From positions 10,415,001-10,479,000 of the forward strand of contig NZ_CP108427.1 of the NCBI RefSeq assembly GCF_035982055.1: a DNA stretch of 64,000 bases. Direction: 5' to 3'. The notes under the pieces were generated by a model, which was not told where the DNA came from, did no database searches, and saw only the letters and a list, made by a program, of their open reading frames with translations. The position numbers and the translations under genes are program-made. The number at the start of each line of letters is the position of its first letter. Positions within the stretch are counted from its first letter, which is position 1. Shown here piece after piece: positions 2,865 to 19,660 of this stretch. The DNA is from Streptomyces sp. NBC_01288 (GTDB lineage Bacteria; Actinomycetota; Actinomycetes; Streptomycetales; Streptomycetaceae).

Positions 2865-2949
2865 GGGTGACAATACTCGGCATCCGGGGGAACGGGGGCG
2901 TCCTGAACGGGGTAAGGAACCCCTTGATCATGTCCGGACGTTGTCACCC
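2865..2949 (+). promoter_or_regulatory. Foldable leader upstream of rutA
   Basis: A 9-bp closing helix GGGTGACAA (2865-2873) / TTGTCACCC (2941-2949) encloses an inner helix TCCGG (2883-2887) / CCGGA (2934-2938) and an apical hairpin GGGGT-AAGGA-ACCCC (2909-2923). It ends 41 bp before the rutA start. I do not match it to a known riboswitch class. It may be a structured 5' leader, or the outer repeat could be a spaced protein-binding site. Confidence 0.35.
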
Positions 2950-2990
2950 CGTCAGGCTCACCCCCGCCCACCCGTCACACAGGAGCGGCA

Positions 2991-4063
2991 TGGACATCGG
3001 CGTATTCATCCCCATCGGCAACAATGGCTGGCTCATATCGAAGAGTTCACCCCAGTACCTGCCGAGCTTCGAGCTGAACAAGGCCATCGTGCGGAAGGCC
3101 GAGGAGCACGGCCTCGACTTCGCGCTGTCGATGATCAAACTCAAGGGCTTCGGCGGCGAGACCGAGTTCTGGGACCACAACCTGGAGTCGTTCACGCTGA
3201 TGGCGGGCCTGGCCGCCGTGACGGAACGCATCAAGCTGTACGCCTCCACCCCGATCCTTGTCCTGCCCCCGGCGATCGTCGCGCGCATGGCCACCACGAT
3301 CGACTCCATCGCCCCTGGCCGCTTCGGCATCAACATCGTCACCGGCTGGGCACCCGGCGAGTACTCCCAGATGGACCTGTGGCCCGGCGACGAACACTTC
3401 GGCAACCGTTACGCGCGCGCCGCCGAGTACGTCACCGTGATGAAGGAGCTGTGGAGCGAGGGCGTCAGCAACTTCAAGGGCGAGTTCTACGAGATGGACG
3501 ACTGCGTGCTCTCGCCGCGCCCGGCGGACGGGCACATCGACATCGTCGCGGCCGGACAGAGCCCCACGGGCATCCGGTTCGCCGCCGAGCACGCCGAGTA
3601 CAACTTCATCCTGGGCAGTGGGGTCAACACCCCCCTCGCCCTGTCGGACACCACGGCCTCGCTCGTGGACGCGGCCGAGGGGACGGGCCGGGACGTCGGC
3701 GCGCTCTCCCTCTTCATGATCATCGCCGATGAGACCGACGAGGCAGCCCGGGCGAAGTGGCAGGACTACCACGACAACGCCGACCACGCGGCGCTGGCGT
3801 ACATGGCCGGCGAATCCGCCACCGACACCACCGCCGACGACACCTCAACCGCCCGCACCATCGTGCTGCCCGAGGGCGCGGTCAACTTCAACATGGGCAC
3901 GCTGGTCGGGTCGTACGAGACCGTCGCGAAGATGCTCGACGAGGTCGCCGAGGTCGAGGGCACCAAGGGCATCATGCTCGTCTTCGACGACTTCCTCGTG
4001 GGCCTGGAGAACTTCGGCACCCGCATCCAGCCGTTGATGAAGTCACGGTCGCTCGCCGAGTGA
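2991..4063 (+). CDS. rutA: Pyrimidine utilisation flavin monooxygenase RutA
   Basis: FMN-dependent group C (luciferase-like) monooxygenase. RutA opens the uracil ring with O2 and reduced FMN in the Rut pyrimidine nitrogen-salvage pathway. The 357-residue product matches the family length and carries its hallmark stretches [52 protein letters not shown] and [12 protein letters not shown]. The start at 2991 is chosen because AGGAGC lies 6 nt upstream and the N-terminus then aligns exactly with RutA. Upstream in-frame starts would add a non-homologous tail. It is followed after 31 bp by an MFS transporter and then a cysteine hydrolase. No rutC, rutD, rutE, rutF or NCS2-type rutG lies nearby, so the reductase and later enzymes would have to come from elsewhere. 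Confidence 0.92.
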
Positions 4064-4094
4064 CCGTCGCTCCGGACGGACCGGGCCCGCGGTC

Positions 4095-5606
4095 GTGACC
4101 GTCGGCCGCGGTCCGTGGCGGGTGTTCGCGGCCACCGCCGTGGGGGTGGTGGCCGTGTTCCTCAACATGAGCGGTCTCGCCGTCGCGCTGCCCACCATCA
4201 CCCGGGAGCTCGGGGCCGACCCCGGGCAGGCCGACTGGATCCTGCTCGGCTACATGCTGGTCACCACCGCCCTGATCCTCGTCTTCGGCCGGCTGGCCGA
4301 CATCGTCGGCCGACGCAGCCTGTATCTCGCCGGGCTCGTCGTCCTCACCGCCGGGACCGGGCTCGCGGCGCTCTCCCCGTCGGCCGGGTTCCTGATCGCG
4401 GCCCGGGTCGTACAGGGCGTCGGTGCCGCCGCCGTGATCACCAACAACACCGCCCTGCTCACCGACGTGTTCCCCGCACGGACACTGGGCCGGGCCCTCG
4501 GCTGGAACGTCACCGTGGCCGCCACGGCCCAGGTCGCCGGACCGGTCGTCGGCGGCGCGGCGACCCAACTCCTCGGCTGGCGTGGGCTGTTCGTCGTCTG
4601 CGTGCCGATCGGGCTGGTCGCGATCGGCGCGTCGGTCCTGGCCGTCCCGGCGAGCGGAACGCGGGTCGGCCGGGCCCGCGAACCGTTCGACCTGCCGGGC
4701 GCGCTGCTGTCCACGGCGATGCTGACCGCACTCGTCCTCACCCTGACACCCGGCGTCACATCCACCGTCGCCGACTGGCTGCCGTGGGCCTGCGGCGCCG
4801 CGACCCTGGCACTGTTCACGGCCTTCGTCGCCGTCCAGACCCGCCGCTCGCACCCCCTGGTCGACGTGGCGCTGCTGCGCACCCGGGCGATCGCCCTCGT
4901 GCTCGCGGCCGTCCTCGCCAACGCGGTCGGCAGCTACGCCGTCGTCCTCCTGGCGTCCCTGCACGAGCAGGCGGTCGGCGGCGCCACGTCCCTGGAGGCG
5001 GGGGTGCTGGTGACACCGGTCGCGGCCGGCACGCTGATCGCCTCGGCCGCCGCGGGTTCCCTGTTCGACCGCTTCACCCCGCGCACGCTGACGACAACGG
5101 GCATGGCGGTCACGGCCTGCGGACTGCTGGGCTTCTCGCTGACCCTCTCGACGACGACCGTGCCCTTCCTGGCCGTCGCCCCGTTCCTCTTCCTCGTCGG
5201 GGCCGGTACCGGGCTGTTCATGACACCGAGCACGGGCGCGCTGATGCTGTCCGCGCCGGCCGACCGGCGCGGTATGGCCAACGGCCTGCGGTCCACCACA
5301 CAGAACGTGGGCTACCTCCTCAGTACGGCCCTCGCCCTCGCGTTCACGACGACCGGGCTGAGCGAACCGGCCCGCCAGGCCGCGTACGACGGGACACTGA
5401 ACACCCTGAACGTGCTCGCGTCCGGCGAGTTGGACCGCTTCGTCGCCAACATCCGCGCCACGGGGTTCGTCCTCACCGGCATCGTCGCGGTCGGGGGAGT
5501 GATCTGCCTGGCCTTTCCCACATCGCTGCGGGCACCCCGTACCGCTGACGCCGCCGTCGTCAACACCCCACCGGAGTCCGCCACTTCACGAAGGACGACA
5601 TCATGA
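4095..5606 (+). CDS. MFS transporter, DHA2 (EmrB/QacA-like, 14 TM)
   Basis: Integral membrane protein of 503 residues, the usual size for 14-helix DHA2 antiporters. Visible signatures are the first helix with VFLNMSGLAVALPTI, the motif-A-like FGRLADIVGRRSLYLAG between helices 2 and 3, and the antiporter motif C region QVAGPVVGGAA. It starts with GTG, 31 bp after the rutA stop, and its TGA overlaps the next start as ATGA, so the three genes read as one operon. In Escherichia coli the rut operon carries the NCS2 permease RutG, so an MFS exporter here is a substitution. Substrate and direction (pyrimidine import or intermediate efflux) cannot be told from sequence. Confidence 0.9.
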   Translation: MTVGRGPWRVFAATAVGVVAVFLNMSGLAVALPTITRELGADPGQADWILLGYMLVTTALILVFGRLADIVGRRSLYLAGLVVLTAGTGLAALSPSAGFLIAARVVQGVGAAAVITNNTALLTDVFPARTLGRALGWNVTVAATAQVAGPVVGGAATQLLGWRGLFVVCVPIGLVAIGASVLAVPASGTRVGRAREPFDLPGALLSTAMLTALVLTLTPGVTSTVADWLPWACGAATLALFTAFVAVQTRRSHPLVDVALLRTRAIALVLAAVLANAVGSYAVVLLASLHEQAVGGATSLEAGVLVTPVAAGTLIASAAAGSLFDRFTPRTLTTTGMAVTACGLLGFSLTLSTTTVPFLAVAPFLFLVGAGTGLFMTPSTGALMLSAPADRRGMANGLRSTTQNVGYLLSTALALAFTTTGLSEPARQAAYDGTLNTLNVLASGELDRFVANIRATGFVLTGIVAVGGVICLAFPTSLRAPRTADAAVVNTPPESATSRRTTS

Positions 5607-6238
5607 CCGGTTCCGCTTCCGCGCAGGAGGACTACGAACGTGCCGGGTTCGACGGACAACTCACCCCCGGCACGTCCCCGGCCCTGATCCTGGTGGACCC
5701 CGCCCGCGCCTACGTCGACCCGGACTGCCCGCTCTACGCCGGTGTCGAACCGGCGGTCGACGCGATGAGGCTCCTCCTTGCCGACGCCCGCCGGGCCGGG
5801 ATCCCGGTGATCGTCACGCGGGTGCTGCTGCGGGCGGACGGCAGCGACGGCGGCCTCTTCTTACGCAAGGTGCCGGTCCTGGGGGTGTTCGCGGAGGGCA
5901 ACCCGTTCGGCGAGTTCATCGACGGCCTGGCCCCGGCGCCGCACGACCTGACGGTGACGAAGCAGTGCCCGAGCGCCTTCTTCGGCACGGAACTGGCCGC
6001 CCACCTCACGGCCGACGGCATCGACACCCTGCTCATCGGCGGACTGTCGACGAGCGGCTGCGTCCGGGCCACCGCGCTGGACGCCATGCAGCACGGATTC
6101 GTACCGATCGTGGTCGAGGAGGCCGTGGGCGACCGGGACCCGGACATCCACGCGGCGAATCTCTTCGACATCAGGCACAAGATCGGCGAGGTGTGGCCGC
6201 TCGGGCGGGCTCAGGAGTACCTCGCGTCTCTCGGCTGA
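5603..6238 (+). CDS. Isochorismatase-family cysteine hydrolase (N-carbamoylsarcosine amidase-like)
   Basis: Cytoplasmic amidohydrolase of 211 residues. The family triad is visible: Asp32 in LILVDPARAY, Lys120 in VTKQCPSAFFGT, and Cys153 in STSGCVRATALDAMQ. The VDPARAY and SAFFGTELAAHL wording resembles N-carbamoylsarcosine/carbamoyl amidases more than enteric RutB, yet its place behind rutA suggests it does RutB's job of hydrolysing a ureido or carbamate product. Its ATG overlaps the transporter stop (ATGA), implying translational coupling. Substrate assignment is inference from context; the fold and triad are secure. Confidence 0.88.
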   Translation: MTGSASAQEDYERAGFDGQLTPGTSPALILVDPARAYVDPDCPLYAGVEPAVDAMRLLLADARRAGIPVIVTRVLLRADGSDGGLFLRKVPVLGVFAEGNPFGEFIDGLAPAPHDLTVTKQCPSAFFGTELAAHLTADGIDTLLIGGLSTSGCVRATALDAMQHGFVPIVVEEAVGDRDPDIHAANLFDIRHKIGEVWPLGRAQEYLASLG

Positions 6239-8117: not shown

Positions 8118-8344
8118 GGCCGCAAACCCACAAGGGCACGATCCGCAGCGGGAGTTGTGGGCCCGGGGCCTTTACGAGCGGTGCCGTTCCCCGCTGTCGA
8201 AGGTACCAGTGGCGGGCCCGATGCGCGGGCCGGGCAACCCCGCCGTGGCCGGTCCGCTCAGCGGAACCGCGGGTGACAGGGCCGCCAGAGGGCGATGACG
8301 CTGGGGCGCTCCTGGTACCGACTGTGGTGGGAGACGTCGTGGAG

Positions 8345-10021
8345 ATGAGCTTGGAACCGGCGGAGGAAGTCGTCGGCATCGATGGTCGGTTCCAGTGGGA
8401 GTTCCCGCCGCCGGGCGGTACCGGCCCCGAACCCGGTCCGGGTTCCGGCTCCGCCGCCCTGTCCGTCTGGTACTTCGCCCTGCCGCTCACCTCCGCCCAC
8501 CGCGGCGGCCACTCCGGCGGCGGTGCCCTCGTGGACGGCGTCGACGGCCAGGAGCGGTACCGGAACGAGGGGACGGTCTACCCCCACTCCGGCCTGGTCG
8601 AGATGATCACCTACCAGGAGCGGTACCTCCCCGAACTCTCCTGGAAATACCTCGACTTGAGCCATGTCCCGTGGGACGACGTACGCGCCGCCATCGCCGC
8701 GGACCCCCCGGACGTGGCCGCGTTCACCGTCTACACCGCCACCGCACTGTGGGCTTTCATCGTCGCCGCGGAGATCAAGCGCGTGAACCCGGACGCGGTC
8801 GTCGTGTTCGGCAACGACCACGCGGGAATCCTCCATCGCGAAATACTCACCGGCCACTACGGCCACCGGCTCGTCGATTTCGTCAGCACCGGCAACAACG
8901 GCCCCTTCACCATGCTCGGCCTCCTGTACGCGCTACGCGGCCAACTCGACCTGAAACGCGTCCCGTCCCTCGCCTATCGCGAACACCTCGGGGTCGTGAA
9001 CCAGCCCGCTCCCACCTACCCACTCGACCGCCGCAGGCTCCCCGACTACACACTCATCGAAGACCAACTGGAGCGGTACTACGACAAGGCGTTCGACGTC
9101 TGGTACGCGCACCACTACGACCTGAAGCGCATGGTCACTCTCCCCCTGGACGCGGGCTGCACCTGGGGAACGCGCCCGGGACGCCGGTGCAAACACTGCT
9201 CGATCCAGGGGCTCACCCCGAAGTTCGCCCGGATGGACACGATCGTTCCCGCACTCGAAAAGGCGGTCGGCGGCCTCGGCGCCAATGTCTACGCCGCCGG
9301 TGACTCCACCCTCGGGTTCTCCCGCGCACAGTGGTCCGGCGACATCGGCTACCTCGACGAACTCGCAGAACGCTGCGCCGCCTCACCGGTACTCCGCGAC
9401 CACCGGTTCCTCCTCGCCTACGGCCTGGTCTTCGAGTTCCTCCAGTCGGCCAAGCTGTGCCAGGGCTTCGTCCGCACGTGGAACGTCGGCCTGGAGGCAT
9501 TCGACCCCAAACTCCTCAAGGGCGACTCCAAGGGCATCAACAAAGGACCCGACCGGGTTTACGAGGCACTCGAACTGGCCCAGGAACTGGACTACAAGAT
9601 CTACGCCTCGGGAATCCTCGGCCTGCCCGGTACCACCCGCAAGCAACTCCACGAAGAGGTCGACTCCTGGCTCTCCCTCGCGGAGACCTATCGGGACACC
9701 ATCACCACGGTCTCGGTCGCGGCGCCCGGTGTGATCCCGGGCTCGCGCATGTACTGGGAGAGCTTCCGCTCCCACCCCGAAGTGCGCGCCGCGCACGGCG
9801 AGATCATTCAGGCCCGGCGCCTCACCGAGCTGTACGTCCACGAGAACACCGAGGTCGAACTCGCCGACGTGGAAGCCGCGATCGCCGATGTCGGCCGGGG
9901 CGTCATCGCCCTCGGCCGGGAGCGCGGACACATGAAGTTCGGCGGCTACATGCTCGGCGGAGTCGACGACGACGAGGCGGCCGAACGACGACTGCTCGAC
10001 GAGATCTGCGCCCAGCTCTGA
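8345..10021 (+). CDS. B12-binding-domain-type radical SAM enzyme with CX9CX2C cluster motif
   Basis: Predicted [4Fe-4S]/S-adenosylmethionine enzyme of 558 residues. The N-terminal half (about 40-200) has the layout of a cobalamin-binding Rossmann domain (ALSVWYFALPLT, PPDVAAFTVYTATALW, PDAVVVFGNDHAG). The radical SAM barrel follows: the cysteines lie at 272, 282 and 285 (CTWGTRPGRRCKHC), i.e. CX9CX2C rather than CX3CX2C, followed by a barrel with LLAYGLVFEFL, TWNVGLEAFDPKLL and ASGILGLPGTTRKQL, typical of B12-type radical SAM proteins. The start is uncertain: ATG 8345 is chosen, but the frame is open from GTG 8273. Next come a FAD enzyme 52 bp later and an exporter overlapping that gene, so it is probably the first gene of a three-gene biosynthetic operon. 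Whether cobalamin binds is inference. Confidence 0.85.
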   Translation: MSLEPAEEVVGIDGRFQWEFPPPGGTGPEPGPGSGSAALSVWYFALPLTSAHRGGHSGGGALVDGVDGQERYRNEGTVYPHSGLVEMITYQERYLPELSWKYLDLSHVPWDDVRAAIAADPPDVAAFTVYTATALWAFIVAAEIKRVNPDAVVVFGNDHAGILHREILTGHYGHRLVDFVSTGNNGPFTMLGLLYALRGQLDLKRVPSLAYREHLGVVNQPAPTYPLDRRRLPDYTLIEDQLERYYDKAFDVWYAHHYDLKRMVTLPLDAGCTWGTRPGRRCKHCSIQGLTPKFARMDTIVPALEKAVGGLGANVYAAGDSTLGFSRAQWSGDIGYLDELAERCAASPVLRDHRFLLAYGLVFEFLQSAKLCQGFVRTWNVGLEAFDPKLLKGDSKGINKGPDRVYEALELAQELDYKIYASGILGLPGTTRKQLHEEVDSWLSLAETYRDTITTVSVAAPGVIPGSRMYWESFRSHPEVRAAHGEIIQARRLTELYVHENTEVELADVEAAIADVGRGVIALGRERGHMKFGGYMLGGVDDDEAAERRLLDEICAQL

Positions 10022-10073
10022 CACCGGCGACGGGCTCAAGAGGGCGACGACACCGGTGGAGAAGGCAGTGAAC

Positions 10074-11843
10074 ATGACCGCGAATACGACCGCGCATACG
10101 CCCGTGAGTACGGCTCGGACGACGTGCGTACCCGCAGCGTGGGCCCCTCGTGTGATCGTCGTCGGCGCCGGCGGCGCGGGCCTGGCCGCCGCCGTCGAGG
10201 CCGCCGCCGAGGGCGCCCACGTCGTCCTCGTCACGAAGGCCGTCTACGAGCACGCCCGGCACCGCTGGGCCTCGGCCGGCGGCTGCACCTGGAAGACCCA
10301 TGCCTTCAACGCGGCCGTCGCGCCGGACGACAGCGTCGCGGCCCACATCGAGGACACCCTGGCGGGTGGCGCGTACGCGGGCGACGAGGACATCGTACGG
10401 ACGCTCTGCGAGGGCGCGTTGGGCCTGGTGGAATGGCTGGAAGGCCTCGGGCTGCGCTTCGAGAAGAGCAATGACGGCCGGTTCGCCACCCGCCCGTTCG
10501 GCGGCAACGGCGCGCCCCGCGCCGTCCACCTGGAGGACCGGCTCGGCTTCCACATCCAGCGCGTGCTCGGCGAACGACTCGCACGACTCGTCCAGGAAGG
10601 CCACGTCGAGGTCCATTCCGGGCTGCGGGCCACGGACATCCTGCTCGACGCCGACGGAACCGTACGCGGGCTTGAGGCGCTGTCCGTCGAGAGCCTCGAA
10701 GTCCTGGAGATCGCCGCGGACGCCGTGATCCTCGCGGACGGCGGCGGCACCTCGATGTACGCACCGTCGGCCGCCTCCACGGACAAGACCTGCGACGGTC
10801 TCGCCCTCGGCCTGCGGGCCGGAGCCGAGGCCGTCGACATGGAGTACGTCCAGTTCCATCCCACCGGGCTCGCCTCGGACGTACCGACGTACGACGGAAT
10901 GCCCGTCGAGGAAGCCGTACGGTTCGACGGGGCGACCCTGCTCAACCGTGACGGCGAGCGGTTCATGCTGCGGTACGACCCGCTGGGCGAACAGGCCACC
11001 CGGGACAAGGTGTCGCGGGGTGCCTACCGCGAGATCGTGGAGGGGCGCGGTTTCCCGGACGGCACGGTCCAGCTCGATCTCGGTGCCTGCGCGCATCTGA
11101 TACCGGAGCGCTATCCGGCCTTGTACGAACGTCTCTGTCTGATCAGGCCGGGATTCGGATCGGTGGACGCGTCGGTACTCGCCGTACGTCCCACCGCCCA
11201 TTTCCTGATGGGCGGAGTCCGGACCGACAGCACGGCCCGCACCACGATTCCCGGCCTGTACGCCGCGGGCGAGACCGCGGGCGGCGTCCACGGCGCCAAC
11301 CGCCTCGGCGGGAACGGCCTGTCGGAGGCCCTCGTCTTCGGCCGCATCGCCGGTCGGCATGCGGCGACCCTCGGCGCCGGTACGGGGTTGAAGGAAGAGC
11401 ACATCCGGGTCACCGGGCCCTACCGCATGGACGTCTCCCCGGACGGCGCCTGCCCCGAGGCCCTGCTCCAACTCCTGCGGCGGGAGATGTACTTGAAGGC
11501 CGGCCCGATCCGTACGGCCCGCGATCTCCTGGCGATGACCGAGACGATCGCGACGCTGGACGAGCGCCGGGAGAAGCTGGACATCGCCTCCGGGCCTCGG
11601 GCGGCGGGCCAGGTGCAGACGTGTCTGGACCTGGAGAACCTCCTGCTGGCCTCGCGGCTGATCGTCGAGTCCGCGCTGCTCCGCGAGGAGTCGCGCGGGG
11701 CGCACCACCGCGAGGACTTTCCCTCGACGGCCGCTCACATCACCGGCAACGCGGTCGTGCAGGACTCCGGGAAACTCGCCTGGAAGCCCGTTCGCCGGGG
11801 TGGAACACGGCCTTCCGACACCGGCGCGGAGCACCCGCGATGA
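10074..11843 (+). CDS. Succinate dehydrogenase/fumarate reductase/NadB-family flavoprotein
   Basis: FAD-dependent oxidoreductase of 589 residues. The dinucleotide motif GAGGAG lies at 31-36. Catalytic landmarks of the SdhA/FrdA/NadB family remain: FHPTG, the Glu in VEEAVRFDG, the Arg in TRDKVSRGAY, the His in PTAHFLMGGV, and the C-terminal GLYAAGETAGGVHGANRLGGN. His63 in RHRWASAGG lines up with the His that carries covalent FAD in SdhA/FrdA, whereas NadB lacks it. ATG 10074 is preferred over GTG 10056 because GGAGAAGG lies 9 nt upstream. No iron-sulfur or membrane-anchor subunit is nearby, so it is not a respiratory complex. In this operon it more likely oxidises or desaturates a small acid or amino-acid intermediate (inference). 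Confidence 0.88.
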   Translation: MTANTTAHTPVSTARTTCVPAAWAPRVIVVGAGGAGLAAAVEAAAEGAHVVLVTKAVYEHARHRWASAGGCTWKTHAFNAAVAPDDSVAAHIEDTLAGGAYAGDEDIVRTLCEGALGLVEWLEGLGLRFEKSNDGRFATRPFGGNGAPRAVHLEDRLGFHIQRVLGERLARLVQEGHVEVHSGLRATDILLDADGTVRGLEALSVESLEVLEIAADAVILADGGGTSMYAPSAASTDKTCDGLALGLRAGAEAVDMEYVQFHPTGLASDVPTYDGMPVEEAVRFDGATLLNRDGERFMLRYDPLGEQATRDKVSRGAYREIVEGRGFPDGTVQLDLGACAHLIPERYPALYERLCLIRPGFGSVDASVLAVRPTAHFLMGGVRTDSTARTTIPGLYAAGETAGGVHGANRLGGNGLSEALVFGRIAGRHAATLGAGTGLKEEHIRVTGPYRMDVSPDGACPEALLQLLRREMYLKAGPIRTARDLLAMTETIATLDERREKLDIASGPRAAGQVQTCLDLENLLLASRLIVESALLREESRGAHHREDFPSTAAHITGNAVVQDSGKLAWKPVRRGGTRPSDTGAEHPR

Positions 11844-12472
11844 ACCTGGACAACGGGATCAGCGTGGCCGCCATATCCCTCGGCGTCGTGATCACACCCG
11901 GGCCGAACATGATGTACATGGTCTCGCGGAGCATCGCCCAGGGCCGCCGCGCCGGGGTGGTGTCGCTGCTCGGGGTCGCGGTCGGCGCCCTGGTCTTCGT
12001 GGTGGTGACGAACCTCGGCCTGATGGCCGTGCTGCGAACCGTCCCCGCGCTGTACACGTCCTTCAAGATCGCGGGCGCCGCCTATCTGGGCTGGCTGGCC
12101 TGGCAGGCCTTCAGCTCGGACGGCGCATCCGTCTTCGCCCCGCGCGAGCTGGCGGACACCTCCACCCGTCGGCTCTTCACCATGGGGCTGGTCACGAACC
12201 TCCTCAACCCCAAGATCGCCCTGCTGTACCTCTCGCTGATCCCGCAGTTCGTGGACACCCGGGCGGGCCACGTCCTCCTCCAGGGCTTCGCCTTCGGCGG
12301 CATCCAGGTCGCCGTGAGCGTGTGTGCGAACCTGGTCATCATCATGGCCGCGGGCACCCTGTCGGAGTTCCTCGCCGCGCGACCCGCCTGGCTGCGGGTA
12401 CAGCGGTACGTCACGGGATCCGCGCTCGGCATGCTGGCCCTGCTGCTGGCGACGGACCAGTCGCAGGCGTGA
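11840..12472 (+). CDS. LysE/RhtB-family amino-acid exporter
   Basis: Membrane protein of 210 residues with the usual six-helix RhtB layout. The N-terminal signature ISLGVVITPGPNMMYMVSRS, the GRRAGVVSLLGVAVG loop and NLLNPKIALLYLSLIPQF are characteristic. The ATG overlaps the stop of the flavoprotein gene (ATGA), giving tight coupling. Family members export amino acids or amino-acid-like metabolites, which suggests that the radical SAM/flavoprotein pair makes an amino-acid-type product that has to leave the cell. The substrate is not readable from sequence. Confidence 0.9.
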   Translation: MNLDNGISVAAISLGVVITPGPNMMYMVSRSIAQGRRAGVVSLLGVAVGALVFVVVTNLGLMAVLRTVPALYTSFKIAGAAYLGWLAWQAFSSDGASVFAPRELADTSTRRLFTMGLVTNLLNPKIALLYLSLIPQFVDTRAGHVLLQGFAFGGIQVAVSVCANLVIIMAAGTLSEFLAARPAWLRVQRYVTGSALGMLALLLATDQSQA

Positions 12473-12627: not shown

Positions 12628-13008
12628 ATGCGTCATCGTCTTGTGCAACGGCTCGCCGTGCTCTGCGCGTCGGCCACTCTGGTCATCGGGTCGACCCTGG
12701 CCGCCGGAACGGCAGCTCACGCCTCGCCGTCATCGCTCGACGGATGCAGGAATCCGTACGTCTGCGTGTACGAACCCCACCAGGTCATGGTGGGCGCCTA
12801 CAAAGACGTCACGCCCTACTGGCAGACCTTCAGTCGCTCCGACGTCACCTACGTCTACAACGCCCGGCACCATGGCGCCGTGTACTTCCTCTACAGCAGC
12901 GGCTACACCAGCTGCGCCGAACCGGGACGCCAGGCCTCCCTGTACCACCGGGGCTACGGCAACGTGACCGGCATCCGTATCGACACCGGCCCGCACTGCT
13001 ACGCCTGA
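12628..13008 (+). CDS. Small secreted Cys-containing protein (peptidase inhibitor I36-like)
   Basis: A 126-residue protein with a clear Sec signal peptide (RLVQRLAVLCASATLVIGS, cleavage after AHA near 31-33). The mature part starts CRNPYVCVYE, contains four cysteines and ends PHCYA. The pattern C-x4-YVCVYE-x-aromatic-rich resembles actinobacterial I36-type inhibitors and beta/gamma-crystallin-like folds. GGGGGAGAAG lies just upstream of ATG 12628. It is probably an extracellular protein with two disulfides, but the inhibitor assignment is tentative. It is apparently monocistronic. Confidence 0.78.
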   Translation: MRHRLVQRLAVLCASATLVIGSTLAAGTAAHASPSSLDGCRNPYVCVYEPHQVMVGAYKDVTPYWQTFSRSDVTYVYNARHHGAVYFLYSSGYTSCAEPGRQASLYHRGYGNVTGIRIDTGPHCYA

Positions 13009-15683: not shown

Positions 15684-16619
15684 TCACTCCACCTCGAACG
15701 TCGCCCCGATCCCCATCCCGGTGATCCACTCCGGAACCGGCTCGTACGCGCTCCACACCAGCGGCGCCCGTACCGCCGCCTGCCCGATCAGCCACGTACG
15801 GATCTCGTGCCCGCCGCTGCCCGCCTGCTCCTCAAGACCCGCGTCGCCGAGGGCCGCGACCGGCTCGGCCTCTCCCGTCCCCAACTGCTTGAGGAACCAG
15901 CGGTCCCACACGCTGTTGACGTGCGCGTGCGGGTCGCCGCCCATCGCCCGGACCCGGGGCTCACGTGCGGCCGCGAAGGCTTGGGCGTCCTCGCGGCCGT
16001 GGATCACCGAGTGCCGGCGGTCCTCGGCCATCGCCGGATCGCGCGGGTCGTTCGTCGGCAGCCAGTGGGAGAGCCCGCCGCTCGCGATGACCAGGACCCG
16101 GCCGGCGGCGCCGTCGCCGCGCAGGGTGTCGCCGAGCGCCCGGCCGAAGTCGATGCAGCGTTCCATGGTCGGCAGCGGGGGAGCGGCGGTGTTCACGACG
16201 AGCGGCACCATCGGGATGTCGGTGCCGCCGCACACCATCTCGTAACTCTGCACGAGCCCGTGGTCGACGGTCAGCGAGTACGACAGCGACAGGTCGAAGC
16301 CCGCGCGAGTGAGCCCGTCGTACGCGGACCAGGCCAGTTCACCGGCGACCGGCAGGGGACCGGGCCGACTGCCGAAGTCGCCGAATCCGACGGCGTGTTC
16401 GACGCCGATGAGGAACGGCGGCATCGCGTCGTAGAAGTTCGCGTGGAAGTGATCGGGGCCGATGACCACGACCGCGTCGGGCGCGAACCGTGCGACCGTC
16501 CGGGAGAGCCGGGCCGCCTCGGCGAGGAACCGGCCGCCGGGCTGCTCGGGGCCGTCGGGCGGCAGCAGGGTGGCGAACGGGGAGTGGGACATGGCGACCA
16601 GGCCGAGGATCTCGCTCAT
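15684..16619 (-). CDS. LigB-type extradiol ring-cleavage dioxygenase (MhpB-like)
   Basis: Type III extradiol dioxygenase of 311 residues, about the size of 2,3-dihydroxyphenylpropionate 1,2-dioxygenase. Iron-binding and acid-base landmarks of the family can be seen: SHSPF near the N-terminus, GPDHFHANFYD, the TVDHGL motif, and SGGLSHWLPTNDPRD in the second half. It would cleave a catechol-type ring next to the hydroxyls. It overlaps the upstream hydrolase gene by 4 bp (ATGA) and is the last gene of the minus-strand hydrolase/cupin/SDR operon. The exact catechol is unknown. Confidence 0.9.
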   Translation of the reverse strand: MSEILGLVAMSHSPFATLLPPDGPEQPGGRFLAEAARLSRTVARFAPDAVVVIGPDHFHANFYDAMPPFLIGVEHAVGFGDFGSRPGPLPVAGELAWSAYDGLTRAGFDLSLSYSLTVDHGLVQSYEMVCGGTDIPMVPLVVNTAAPPLPTMERCIDFGRALGDTLRGDGAAGRVLVIASGGLSHWLPTNDPRDPAMAEDRRHSVIHGREDAQAFAAAREPRVRAMGGDPHAHVNSVWDRWFLKQLGTGEAEPVAALGDAGLEEQAGSGGHEIRTWLIGQAAVRAPLVWSAYEPVPEWITGMGIGATFEVE

Positions 16620-17494
16620 GCCGGGTCCTTTTCGAGCAGGAGGAAGTCCCGGTGGGCGCGCAGGAATTCAGCGGGTTTCTCCCACTGCGGCCAGTGGCCC
16701 GCGTCCGCGATGACATGCAGGCGGGCGTCAGGCAGCCAGCTCTGGAGCATCGCCGCCTCGTCGAGTCCGCCGGTCGGGTCGTGGTCGGTCCACAACAGCA
16801 GCGTGGGCGCGGTGATGTGGCCGACCCAGGCCGGGTCCCAGGCGAAGTCCTTGCGTACGTCGGGGTCTTGGAGCACCAATGTGTTCTCGATCGCGCGCAG
16901 GAAGCCGGGGCGGCCGTAGACCGCGCGGCGCAGGTTCACCAGTTCGTCGGTGACCATCGAGGTGTCGTGGAAGAGGAACTCGACGCGGCGGCGCACGGTT
17001 TCGTCGCTGGGGTCCCTGACGGCGGCCAGGGTGCTGTCGCGCATCCGGACCATCACCTCGGGCTTGTTGGCGATGTTCCCGGGGGTGTTGAGCACGAGCC
17101 GTTCGACGCGCTCGGGGTGGTACGCGGCGGTCCACGCGGTCACCCAGCCGCCGAGCGATTCGCCGGACAGGTGCGCCGACTCGATCCCCGACGCGTCCAT
17201 CAGGCCCAGGAGATGATCGGAGAGCACGTCGATCGTGTACGGCCGGTCCGGGAGGTCGGACCAACCGTGGCCGACCATGTCGTAGGCCGTGACACGGAAG
17301 TCGGCGGCGAGCCCGGCGATGTCCCGGGCGTAGGCCTCCAGATGTCCGCCGGTGCCGTGCAGCAGGATCAGCTCGGGGCCGGACCCCGCGCGTAGGACCC
17401 GCGTACGGACACCGGCGACATCGACGAAGCTCAACTCATGCTCCACGTCGGACAGTTCGCCCCAGATGCCGATGTGGGTGGGCAACGGGCTCAT
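16616..17494 (-). CDS. Alpha/beta hydrolase, meta-cleavage product hydrolase-like
   Basis: A 292-residue alpha/beta hydrolase. Oxyanion segment LLHGTGGH, nucleophile elbow GESLGG (Ser113), an acid in LWTDHDPTGG and catalytic His in DAGHWPQWEKP are in canonical order. That final motif and the direct coupling to an extradiol dioxygenase are typical of C-C bond hydrolases (MhpC/BphD type) that split the ring-opened product. It overlaps both neighbours by 4 bp. Substrate is inferred from the dioxygenase partner. Confidence 0.87.
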   Translation of the reverse strand: MSPLPTHIGIWGELSDVEHELSFVDVAGVRTRVLRAGSGPELILLHGTGGHLEAYARDIAGLAADFRVTAYDMVGHGWSDLPDRPYTIDVLSDHLLGLMDASGIESAHLSGESLGGWVTAWTAAYHPERVERLVLNTPGNIANKPEVMVRMRDSTLAAVRDPSDETVRRRVEFLFHDTSMVTDELVNLRRAVYGRPGFLRAIENTLVLQDPDVRKDFAWDPAWVGHITAPTLLLWTDHDPTGGLDEAAMLQSWLPDARLHVIADAGHWPQWEKPAEFLRAHRDFLLLEKDPA

Positions 17495-17994
17495 GCCTGC
17501 TCCTCCTTGAATCGTGCGCGGGCTTCCGCGACCGTGACCAGGCCCGCGCTCTGCCGGCGGCCGACGCCGAGCAGGTTCAGCAGACGGGAGTTCTCGATGG
17601 TGAGGAACTCGACCGGCTCGGTGTCGGAGTCGTTGTAGTGGCGGTGCCAGGTCCAGGGCGGGGTGTAGATGAAGTCGCCGGTGGCCCAGGGCTCGGTGTC
17701 GTCCTCGATGTCGCTGTGGCCGCGCCCGCTGATGACGAAGTGCACCGTCTCGTGATGGTGGCGCTGCATGTCCGAGCTGAGACCCGCCGGGATGGTCTGC
17801 CGGAAGAGTTCGAAGGAGGCCGTCGGCAGCAGCCCGGCGATCGCCAGCACGGTCGGGTTGTGCACCTGGTCGGCCGGCAGGGGCGCGAGTTCGTCGGCGT
17901 GCACGACGACCGGCCGCGCCGTCCCGGGCCGCACGGTGTCCTGGATCGAGCCGAGGAAATCGGCCATGGTGAAGCGAGGTCCCGATTCAGCCAT
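17491..17994 (-). CDS. Cupin-domain protein
   Basis: A 167-residue single-domain cupin. The metal-binding motif 1 region appears as MQRHHHETVHFVISGRGHSD and motif 2 as GDFIYTPPWTWHRHYN, with the usual His/Glu pattern. It may be a dioxygenase, isomerase or ligand-binding accessory protein of the aromatic pathway. It overlaps the downstream hydrolase by 4 bp and abuts the upstream SDR gene. Cupins of this size in meta-cleavage operons are not functionally predictable from sequence. Confidence 0.8.
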   Translation of the reverse strand: MAESGPRFTMADFLGSIQDTVRPGTARPVVVHADELAPLPADQVHNPTVLAIAGLLPTASFELFRQTIPAGLSSDMQRHHHETVHFVISGRGHSDIEDDTEPWATGDFIYTPPWTWHRHYNDSDTEPVEFLTIENSRLLNLLGVGRRQSAGLVTVAEARARFKEEQA

Positions 17995-18776
17995 CAGATC
18001 GTCTCCGTCCTTCCGCCGTCGACCGTGAGCACGGTCCCGTTGATGTACGCCGCCTCGTCGGAGGCCAGGAACGCCACGGCCGACGCGATCTCCGCCGGTC
18101 GCGCGGCCCGCCCGGCCGGAATGTGCGCCAGGTCCTGCGCGTCGAGTTCGTCGAACCCGAGGTGTGCGGCGCGTGCCCGGTTGGTCAGGATCTGCGTCCG
18201 CCGCTCGGTCGAAGTGGCGCCGGGGGCAACGCAGTTGACGGTCACGCCCTCGGCCGCGAACTCACGGGAGAGCAGCTTGGCCGCCGCCGTCACCGCCGAC
18301 CGCAGCACCACGGACGCGGCCAGGTCGGGCTGCGGCTGCCGTACCGCCGTGGACGTCACGAAAACCACCCGCCCGAAGCCCCGCTTCGCCATACCCGGCA
18401 TCGCGAGGCGCGCCAGCCGCAGTGGGCCGAGCAACAGCAGCTCGGACGCCTCCCGCCACCGTGCGTCGTCGAGGTCGAGGATCCCGCCGGGCGGCGGACC
18501 ACCGGCATTGAGCACCAGCACGTCGAGGCCGCCGTACCGGTCGTCGACCTCTTCCATCGCCGCCACGGCCGAGGACGGATCGGCCATGTCGCTCACCAGG
18601 GCGTGCACCTCACGCGCCGGGCCGTCGCCCGTGGCGTGGCTGAGCCGGGCGGCCGCGGCTTCGAGGGCCTCGGCGCGCCGGCCGGTGATCACCACCCGGT
18701 CGCCCGAACCCGCCAGGCGCTCCGCGACCGCGTGACCGATACCGCTCGCACCGCCGCCGACCAATGCTGTCCGCAT
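17994..18776 (-). CDS. SDR-family protein with atypical active site
   Basis: Rossmann-fold short-chain dehydrogenase-like protein of 260 residues with cofactor motif GGGASGIG near the N-terminus, LVLNAGG, and the C-terminal NGTVLTVDGGR. The usual catalytic YxxxK is absent: the aligned segment reads LAASVVLRSAVTAAAK, so Tyr and Lys are replaced. The same loss occurs in the BKR-like SDR subgroup, so it is probably a family trait and not damage, but the chemistry is uncertain. ATG 18776 is chosen over 18806 because GGGAGG precedes it and the protein then begins at its first strand. It is the first gene of the operon and divergent from iclR. Confidence 0.82.
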   Translation of the reverse strand: MRTALVGGGASGIGHAVAERLAGSGDRVVITGRRAEALEAAAARLSHATGDGPAREVHALVSDMADPSSAVAAMEEVDDRYGGLDVLVLNAGGPPPGGILDLDDARWREASELLLLGPLRLARLAMPGMAKRGFGRVVFVTSTAVRQPQPDLAASVVLRSAVTAAAKLLSREFAAEGVTVNCVAPGATSTERRTQILTNRARAAHLGFDELDAQDLAHIPAGRAARPAEIASAVAFLASDEAAYINGTVLTVDGGRTETI

Positions 18777-18838
18777 GATGTTGGCATCCTCCCGAGTCCT
18801 CCCCACGCCCGCCGGCAGGGGCAGCCGAGCCTTCCCCT

Positions 18839-18857
18839 TGTCCGCCGGGCAGGGACA
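18839..18857. promoter_or_regulatory. Candidate IclR operator in the SDR/IclR divergent gap
   Basis: TGTCC-GCCGGGCAG-GGACA contains GTCC-N9-GGAC, the same spacing as an inverted repeat at 19664-19682 before the cupin/FMO operon. It lies 18 bp before the iclR start and 63 bp before the SDR start. Binding by the adjacent IclR protein is inferred. Confidence 0.45.
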
Positions 18858-18874
18858 GCCTTAGCGTGACCGGC

Positions 18875-19660
18875 ATGACCCCCGGGGAACAAGGGACGAG
18901 TCCCACTGCGCGGGACGGCAAGGCCGAGACCTTCGGTCTGGAGCGCGCGGCGGCGATCCTCGGCGCCTTCGACGCGGCGCACCGCGAGCTGACGCTCTCC
19001 GCGCTCGTGGCCCGCTGCGGGCTGCCCCGGTCGACCACCCACCGCACCGCGGACCGGATGATCCGGCTCGGCTGGCTGGACAAACCCCAGGGCCACTACC
19101 GGATCGGCAACCGGCTCTTCGAGATCGCGAGCCTGGCCCCGATCCGCCTCGAACTGCGCGAGGCCGTCCTGCCCTACCTCCAGGACCTGCACAGCGCGAC
19201 CAGGACCACCGTGCAGCTCGGTGTCCTGGAGGGCGCGCAGATCCTGGTCGTCGAGAAGATCACCGGCCACCGTCCCATGCCGATGCTCTCCCAGGTCGGC
19301 GGAATCATCCCGGCGTACTGCTCGGCGCTGGGCCGGGCCATCCTCGCCTACAGCGAGACCGCGACCATCGACGCCGTACTCGATGCCGGAACGCCGCCGC
19401 GCAACCCGCGCACGCTGACCACCAAGGAAGCCGTGATCCGCGAGCTGACCGCCGTCCCTGCCAGGGGCTGGGCGGTGGAGCGCGAGGAGGGCAACATCGG
19501 CGTGAGCTGCGTCGCCGCCCCGATCTTCGGCCCGTCCGGCGACGTCGCCGCGGCCCTGTCCGTCACCGGGCCCACCGCCCTGGTCCGCGCCGACCGGGCC
19601 GGGCCCGCCGTACGGCTCGCCGCCGCGGCCGCCTCCCGGGCCTACAGCACCCGCCGCTGA
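18875..19660 (+). CDS. IclR-family transcriptional regulator
   Basis: A 261-residue regulator. The N-terminal winged HTH spans about 20-85 (LERAAAILGAFDAAHRELTL, RSTTHRTADRMIRLGWL). The ligand-binding GAF-like domain follows, with GGIIPAYCSALGRAILAY and EREEGNIGVSCVAAPIF typical of IclR proteins. ATG 18875 and GTG 18866 are both possible, and neither has a strong ribosome site. It sits between the two halves of the aromatic-type locus and probably controls both in response to a pathway acid. Confidence 0.9.
   Translation: MTPGEQGTSPTARDGKAETFGLERAAAILGAFDAAHRELTLSALVARCGLPRSTTHRTADRMIRLGWLDKPQGHYRIGNRLFEIASLAPIRLELREAVLPYLQDLHSATRTTVQLGVLEGAQILVVEKITGHRPMPMLSQVGGIIPAYCSALGRAILAYSETATIDAVLDAGTPPRNPRTLTTKEAVIRELTAVPARGWAVEREEGNIGVSCVAAPIFGPSGDVAAALSVTGPTALVRADRAGPAVRLAAAAASRAYSTRR

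Follow-up and report, generated by a model that had tools for sequence, protein, structure and literature searches.

Three genes in the window, the whole stretch of 64,000 nucleotides analysed here, form a cassette that appears to be a genuine small pathway, rare and not described before, built from kinds of enzymes that are themselves known. They encode a radical SAM enzyme, a flavoprotein, and a LysE exporter. The preferred reading, held at a probability of roughly 35%, is that glutamate, or an acidic amino acid resembling it, is the substrate from which the radical SAM enzyme makes an exported analogue, and that in this cassette the flavoprotein would oxidize the product further, with LysE replacing an MFS exporter. 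No described cluster combining a radical SAM enzyme, a flavoprotein, and a LysE protein was found in the literature searched, in keeping with the preliminary description of this DNA, in which the cassette could not be matched to any.

On the 10.558-Mb Streptomyces chromosome, the window occupies 10.415-10.479 Mb, within the right arm. By ORF reading of the window, the cassette consists of three intact, codirectional genes, with the following features (window coordinates):

8345..10021, plus strand: radical SAM enzyme with an N-terminal cobalamin-type Rossmann domain (558 aa; Pfam and NCBIfam searches, orthologues, alignment, and AF2 model)
8498..8524, plus strand: HRGGHSGGG, the beginning of a kept, subfamily-specific His/Arg/Gly-rich loop of the Rossmann domain (alignments)
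9158..9199, plus strand: Fe-S cluster motif CTWGTRPGRRCKHC (CX9CX2C), its three Cys invariant in 10 aligned orthologues
10056..11843, plus strand: SdhA/FrdA/NadB-type FAD flavoprotein (595 aa; domain and family searches, isolated branch)
10857..11303, plus strand: region enclosing the flavoprotein's catalytic dicarboxylate residues (alignments to E. coli SdhA 1nek and to own-genome paralogues)
11840..12472, plus strand: LysE/RhtB-family exporter (210 aa; PF01810)

The start MSLEP of the radical SAM protein is conserved, and an alternative GTG at 8339, 6 bases upstream, agrees with the in-frame ATG/GTG starts of several relatives. The flavoprotein gene begins 34 bp past the radical SAM stop codon and the LysE gene overlaps it by ATGA, which confirms the three tightly spaced genes, with their families and place, as first described. 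Relative to Streptomyces sp. MBT65, synonymous to non-synonymous codon differences amount to 91:19 for the radical SAM gene, 78:67 for the flavoprotein gene, and 22:19 for the LysE gene; by these counts, all three reading frames are under selection. Among the ORFs surrounding the cassette in the window, none for SdhB/C/D or NadA/C was seen, in line with the flavoprotein without partner subunits initially proposed. An Rfam search of the window returned zero matches, so that, at the thresholds of that database, a cobalamin riboswitch is absent.

The radical SAM protein is recognized by the Pfam models for the B12-binding Rossmann domain (8.2e-6) and Radical_SAM (1.8e-4), both just below the curated cut-offs, and it scores under the cut-off of every NCBIfam family matched. 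Nine relatives were recovered from a scan of 84,980 species genomes, and four further loci from sampled genome searches, making 14 loci in all, including the window; among 392 other Streptomyces genomes, the gene occurs in five. Aligned members are 66-97% identical (96% by BLAST for the nearest relative), and beyond them identity drops to about 25% (22-26%) for anything else in the sampled genomes. The protein is a member of a rare, tight, and uncharacterized actinobacterial subfamily. Its tree mixes genera, with Nocardia and Thermomonospora branching among Streptomyces, which suggests horizontal transfer. No relative was detected on the plasmids searched, where flavoprotein relatives reach just 35-39%.

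The cysteines C272, C282, and C285 are invariant, with CX9CX2C spacing, in the alignment of 10 orthologues. The nearest outside homologues are TIGR03975-like enzymes, and CX7CX2C CWWGEKHHCTFC is found in eight of the nine outside relatives examined. Two hallmarks of the cobalamin-type radical SAM superfamily are present: the three-Cys [4Fe-4S] motif, and the layout of a Rossmann domain followed by a radical SAM barrel (from Pfam matches below cut-offs and from the fold match). The AF2 model used (pLDDT 74, pTM 0.84; an earlier model from 10 sequences was weaker, with pLDDT 64) matches, over residues 37-540, the structures of AprD4 (Z 23.2), CysS (21.9), OxsB (21.3), TokK (21.0), MgmA (21.0), and TsrM (20.5), the matches spanning 380-445 residues. 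The best of them, AprD4, superposes at 3.3 Å over 413 residues. AprD4 is not known to use cobalamin and works with a reductase partner. The predicted fold resembles cobalamin-bound structures and AprD4 alike, and is thus compatible both with an enzyme that binds cobalamin and with one that does not. The initial designation as a cobalamin-type radical SAM enzyme stands for the fold, but not for the cofactor: on the model, it would be a fold label rather than a demonstrated cofactor.

The small-molecule cobalamin-type enzymes TsrM, OxsB, CysS, and TokK share the same Rossmann domain and TIM barrel over residues of about 37-540 (Z 20-22). Nevertheless, they are only 13-17% identical to the radical SAM protein, usually carry CX3CX2C instead of CX9CX2C, lack its His/Arg/Gly-rich loop, and belong to large clusters, whereas the genes described here are mostly stand-alone or exporter-linked. 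AprD4, a radical SAM diol dehydratase, is the top fold match, yet it is 14% identical, and its reductase partner is absent here.

The similarity to the TIGR03975 RiPP C-methyltransferases raises the question of whether the enzyme modifies a short ribosomal peptide. They are the nearest sequence relatives outside the subfamily (22-26%), their cluster motif is likewise expanded, and the protein scores 35.1 bits against TIGR03975. This score is far under the cut-off of 281.85, however, which places the protein outside that family, and TIGR03975 enzymes have CX7CX2C spacing, an RGEGE motif, a longer C-terminus, and a precursor peptide, none of which is found in the cassette. The 1.5 kb around the radical SAM gene, compared across 10 loci, revealed no conserved small ORF, and the exporter of the window is of the amino-acid type, so that RiPP maturation is improbable. 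An unusual NAD/quinolinate or succinate/fumarate metabolism, to which the family and catalytic residues of the flavoprotein could point, is more improbable still. The flavoprotein is below all NadB, SdhA, FrdA, and TfrA cut-offs, other SdhA/NadB-family genes are present elsewhere in its own genome, and genes for NadA/C, iron-sulfur, and membrane subunits were not seen in the neighbourhood. Quinolinate/NAD synthesis, named at the outset as an outcome that would overturn the preliminary description, is thereby not supported.

The flavoprotein contains FAD_binding_2 (4e-67) and Succ_DH_flav_C (1e-14). Against the NadB family, it scores 336.3 bits, below the 452.75-bit cut-off, and against the SdhA/FrdA respiratory family, 361.1 bits, under the cut-off of 567.3 bits. 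It lies within the SdhA/FrdA/NadB superfamily, with which it shares the fold family, the FAD site, and the catalytic His/Arg set, and outside all of its named families. It forms an isolated branch (best own-genome match about 39%), and searches of 246 other Streptomyces genomes (E 1e-100) and of 296 genomes of the class (E 1e-80) yielded no close relative. In the phmmer alignment to E. coli SdhA 1nek and the paralogue alignment, H268, R316, H382, and R416 correspond to SdhA H242, R286, H354, and R399, the dicarboxylate catalytic set expected of the superfamily. In SdhA, these His/Arg residues bind and protonate dicarboxylates. The position of SdhA Thr254 is occupied by E285, unlike in the named families, and a histidine may be present at the place of the flavin-linking His45, where the alignment is ambiguous. 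The flavoprotein would, thus, oxidize a dicarboxylate or acidic amino acid in an altered substrate pocket.

The third protein belongs to the LysE superfamily (PF01810, 2e-30, 106.1 bits against a gathering score of 25.6) and falls outside the RhtB homoserine/threonine exporters (TIGR00949, 110.5 bits, below the cut-off of 183.95). LysE-type transporters also export a non-proteinogenic amino-acid toxin in the gvg system of Pseudomonas (4-formylaminooxyvinylglycine; PMC8067088), although this 12-gene cluster relies on other chemistry and has no radical SAM enzyme.

The preliminary description had proposed a search for the same three-gene order across actinomycetes; it is found only in the three closest genomes, namely those of the window, of Streptomyces sp. 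MBT65 (L001), and of Streptomyces sp. P3 (L004). In Streptomyces sp. P3, all three cassette genes carry frameshifts (L004 8001-12115), which may reflect either sequencing/assembly errors or decay. In the 11 other loci, the radical SAM gene has no flavoprotein gene with it. An MFS exporter directly follows it in L002, L006, L008, and L009, a few bases apart or overlapping, and no exporter follows it in L003, L005, L007, L027, and L056. Of the two remaining loci, L028 carries a frameshift and L029 runs into a contig end; overall, 7 of the 14 loci have an exporter behind the gene. The constant core is, thus, the radical SAM enzyme, with the exporter as its commonest partner and the flavoprotein as a lineage-specific addition, as attested by the 11 loci devoid of the latter, four of which have an MFS exporter instead. 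The original suggestion, that an unusual amino acid or dicarboxylate is made and exported, is compatible with all of these findings and sharpened towards a glutamate-like compound, but the flavoprotein does not belong to the core.

Large clusters are found near L005 (HMG-CoA synthase, acyltransferase, and glutamate mutase about 24 kb off), L027 (NRPS), and L009 (poly-diaminobutyrate-type), with no common theme. In Streptomyces sp. CB02923, part of glutamate mutase subunit S is fused to subunit E (L042 15697-17439), about 24 kb from a second radical SAM copy. In S. roseoverticillatus, an adenylation-carrier protein with hexapeptide repeats, a class III aminotransferase, and an aspartokinase-like gene (L052 1791-8655) look like a poly-diaminobutyrate synthetase cluster.

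The flavoprotein and LysE could also serve a separate function, such as dicarboxylate/amino-acid oxidation and overflow export, and lie merely downstream of an unrelated radical SAM gene, as both accompany it in the three closest genomes only and diverge faster than it does. The 34-bp gap and common strand argue against this, as does the absence of any close flavoprotein copy elsewhere among the genomes covered. Moreover, the three-gene block is kept in two different surroundings within the clade (MBT65 and the window versus P3), and P3 retains all three genes although its other flanks differ, save one secreted-protein gene. A separate function is, therefore, rather unlikely. It is possible, at well below even odds, that the exported metabolite is amino-acid-like and unrelated to glutamate, for instance a neutral or basic amino acid that has been C-methylated or rearranged, in which case the solute-binding neighbours described below would reflect insertion sites or unrelated regulation. 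Neutral and hydroxy amino acids are fitting substrates for the LysE/RhtB family, multidrug/siderophore-type models give weak scores for the MFS relatives, and L002 and L003 share non-glutamate neighbours; nevertheless, chance hardly accounts for five loci with an adjacent solute-binding gene together with placement at the glu locus in two genera.

The glutamate link comes from these neighbours. An SBP_bac_3 or TAXI solute-binding gene adjoins the radical SAM gene in 5 of the 13 other loci, in one of them as a remnant only. Three genomes, among them that of the window, contain a TAXI-gluK-gluR-gluABCD locus, which miaB accompanies in two of the three stretches retrieved. In Wenjunlia, a kinase/GluB-like fusion and the radical SAM-MFS pair are inserted between TAXI and gluK, the locus being otherwise contiguous (miaB-TAXI-gluK-gluR-gluABCD); the fused sensor (46% to GluB) is directly upstream of the radical SAM gene. 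The fusion of a Ser/Thr protein kinase with an amino-acid-binding domain of the GluB-like type, encoded at L006 5767-7731, makes an unusual one-protein sensor next to the radical SAM gene. The Nocardia radical SAM-MFS pair adjoins gluABCD-miaB. In S. roseoverticillatus, a second TAXI paralogue, 55% identical, is directly upstream of the pair, while the housekeeping TAXI remains at a separate glu locus. G112 has a TAXI remnant directly upstream, and Thermomonospora an SBP_bac_3 gene directly downstream, of the radical SAM gene. L056 (G1067) came to light once the glutamate link had already been put forward; there, an SBP_bac_3 gene with 37% identity to GluB immediately precedes the radical SAM gene. 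GluK is a glutamate sensor that regulates gluABCD (PMC9739842).

For at least 4 of 10 loci with a solute-binding neighbour, P is about 5e-8, with an assumed base rate of 0.4% and loci that are not fully independent. The neighbours are, thus, a strong hint, but not proof, that the subfamily is tied to glutamate, given this assumed base rate, the partial dependence of the loci, and the alpha-amylase/sugar-ABC neighbours common to L002 and L003, which illustrate that position can be shared without shared function. Hitchhiking of TAXI from the Wenjunlia locus was considered and rejected, as the L009 TAXI does not group with that of Wenjunlia in a poorly resolved tree.

According to the glutamate-analogue reading, SAM would be cleaved at the [4Fe-4S] cluster bound by the CX9CX2C motif, and the enzyme would functionalize an unactivated carbon of free glutamate, or of an acidic amino acid much like it, most likely through cobalamin C-methylation, to give a glutamate analogue. 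In the relatives, the MFS exporter would pump this product out directly, and the adjoining glutamate-type solute-binding protein or sensor may detect the product or the glutamate supply. The window lineage lacks the MFS gene; there, a dicarboxylate-like intermediate would be bound and dehydrogenated by the SdhA/NadB-like flavoprotein, and LysE would export the amino acid so formed. For one unusual amino acid, norcoronamic acid, a biosynthetic route through a cobalamin-type radical SAM enzyme is known (PMC7277169). Several points speak against the glutamate-analogue reading: the top structural match, AprD4, is not known to use cobalamin, the five loci listed above have no exporter at all, and the window's own cassette has no solute-binding or glutamate gene beside it. 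The diversity of SBP_bac_3 ligands is a further one, since these proteins bind various polar amino acids and not glutamate alone.

More broadly, though on balance this is doubtful, the subfamily may define a new one- or two-enzyme natural-product pathway that converts glutamate in its free form, or a close relative of it, into an antimetabolite or signal for export, with dedicated copies of glutamate-binding sensors, and that has spread horizontally across Streptomyces, Wenjunlia, Nocardia, Thermomonosporaceae, and Micromonosporaceae. If true, this would define a compact actinobacterial pathway class, a radical SAM enzyme plus an exporter, making glutamate-like metabolites, and such minimal radical SAM clusters would probably be missed by standard cluster finders. 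Compounds of the glutamate-like class can be antimetabolites or neuroactive. The glutamate-sensing neighbours provide a concrete substrate guess for an orphan radical SAM subfamily, open to a simple in vitro test.

Other genes of the window may be mentioned. At 2867-6238, a RutA-like luciferase-family monooxygenase, an MFS transporter, and an isochorismatase-family gene in a row resemble an oxidative pyrimidine-type catabolic set; they were rejected as part of the cassette owing to their uneven retention, as L001 has RutA and MFS without the isochorismatase, and neither is present in L004. A secreted 126-aa protein with no Pfam match, encoded in the window at 12628-13008, has a counterpart (86%) directly 3' of the cassette in L004 and was not found in L001. 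On the minus strand, at 15684-19660, LigB-type dioxygenase, hydrolase, cupin, and SDR genes beside an IclR-like regulator look, from their translations alone, like an aromatic-compound catabolic operon.
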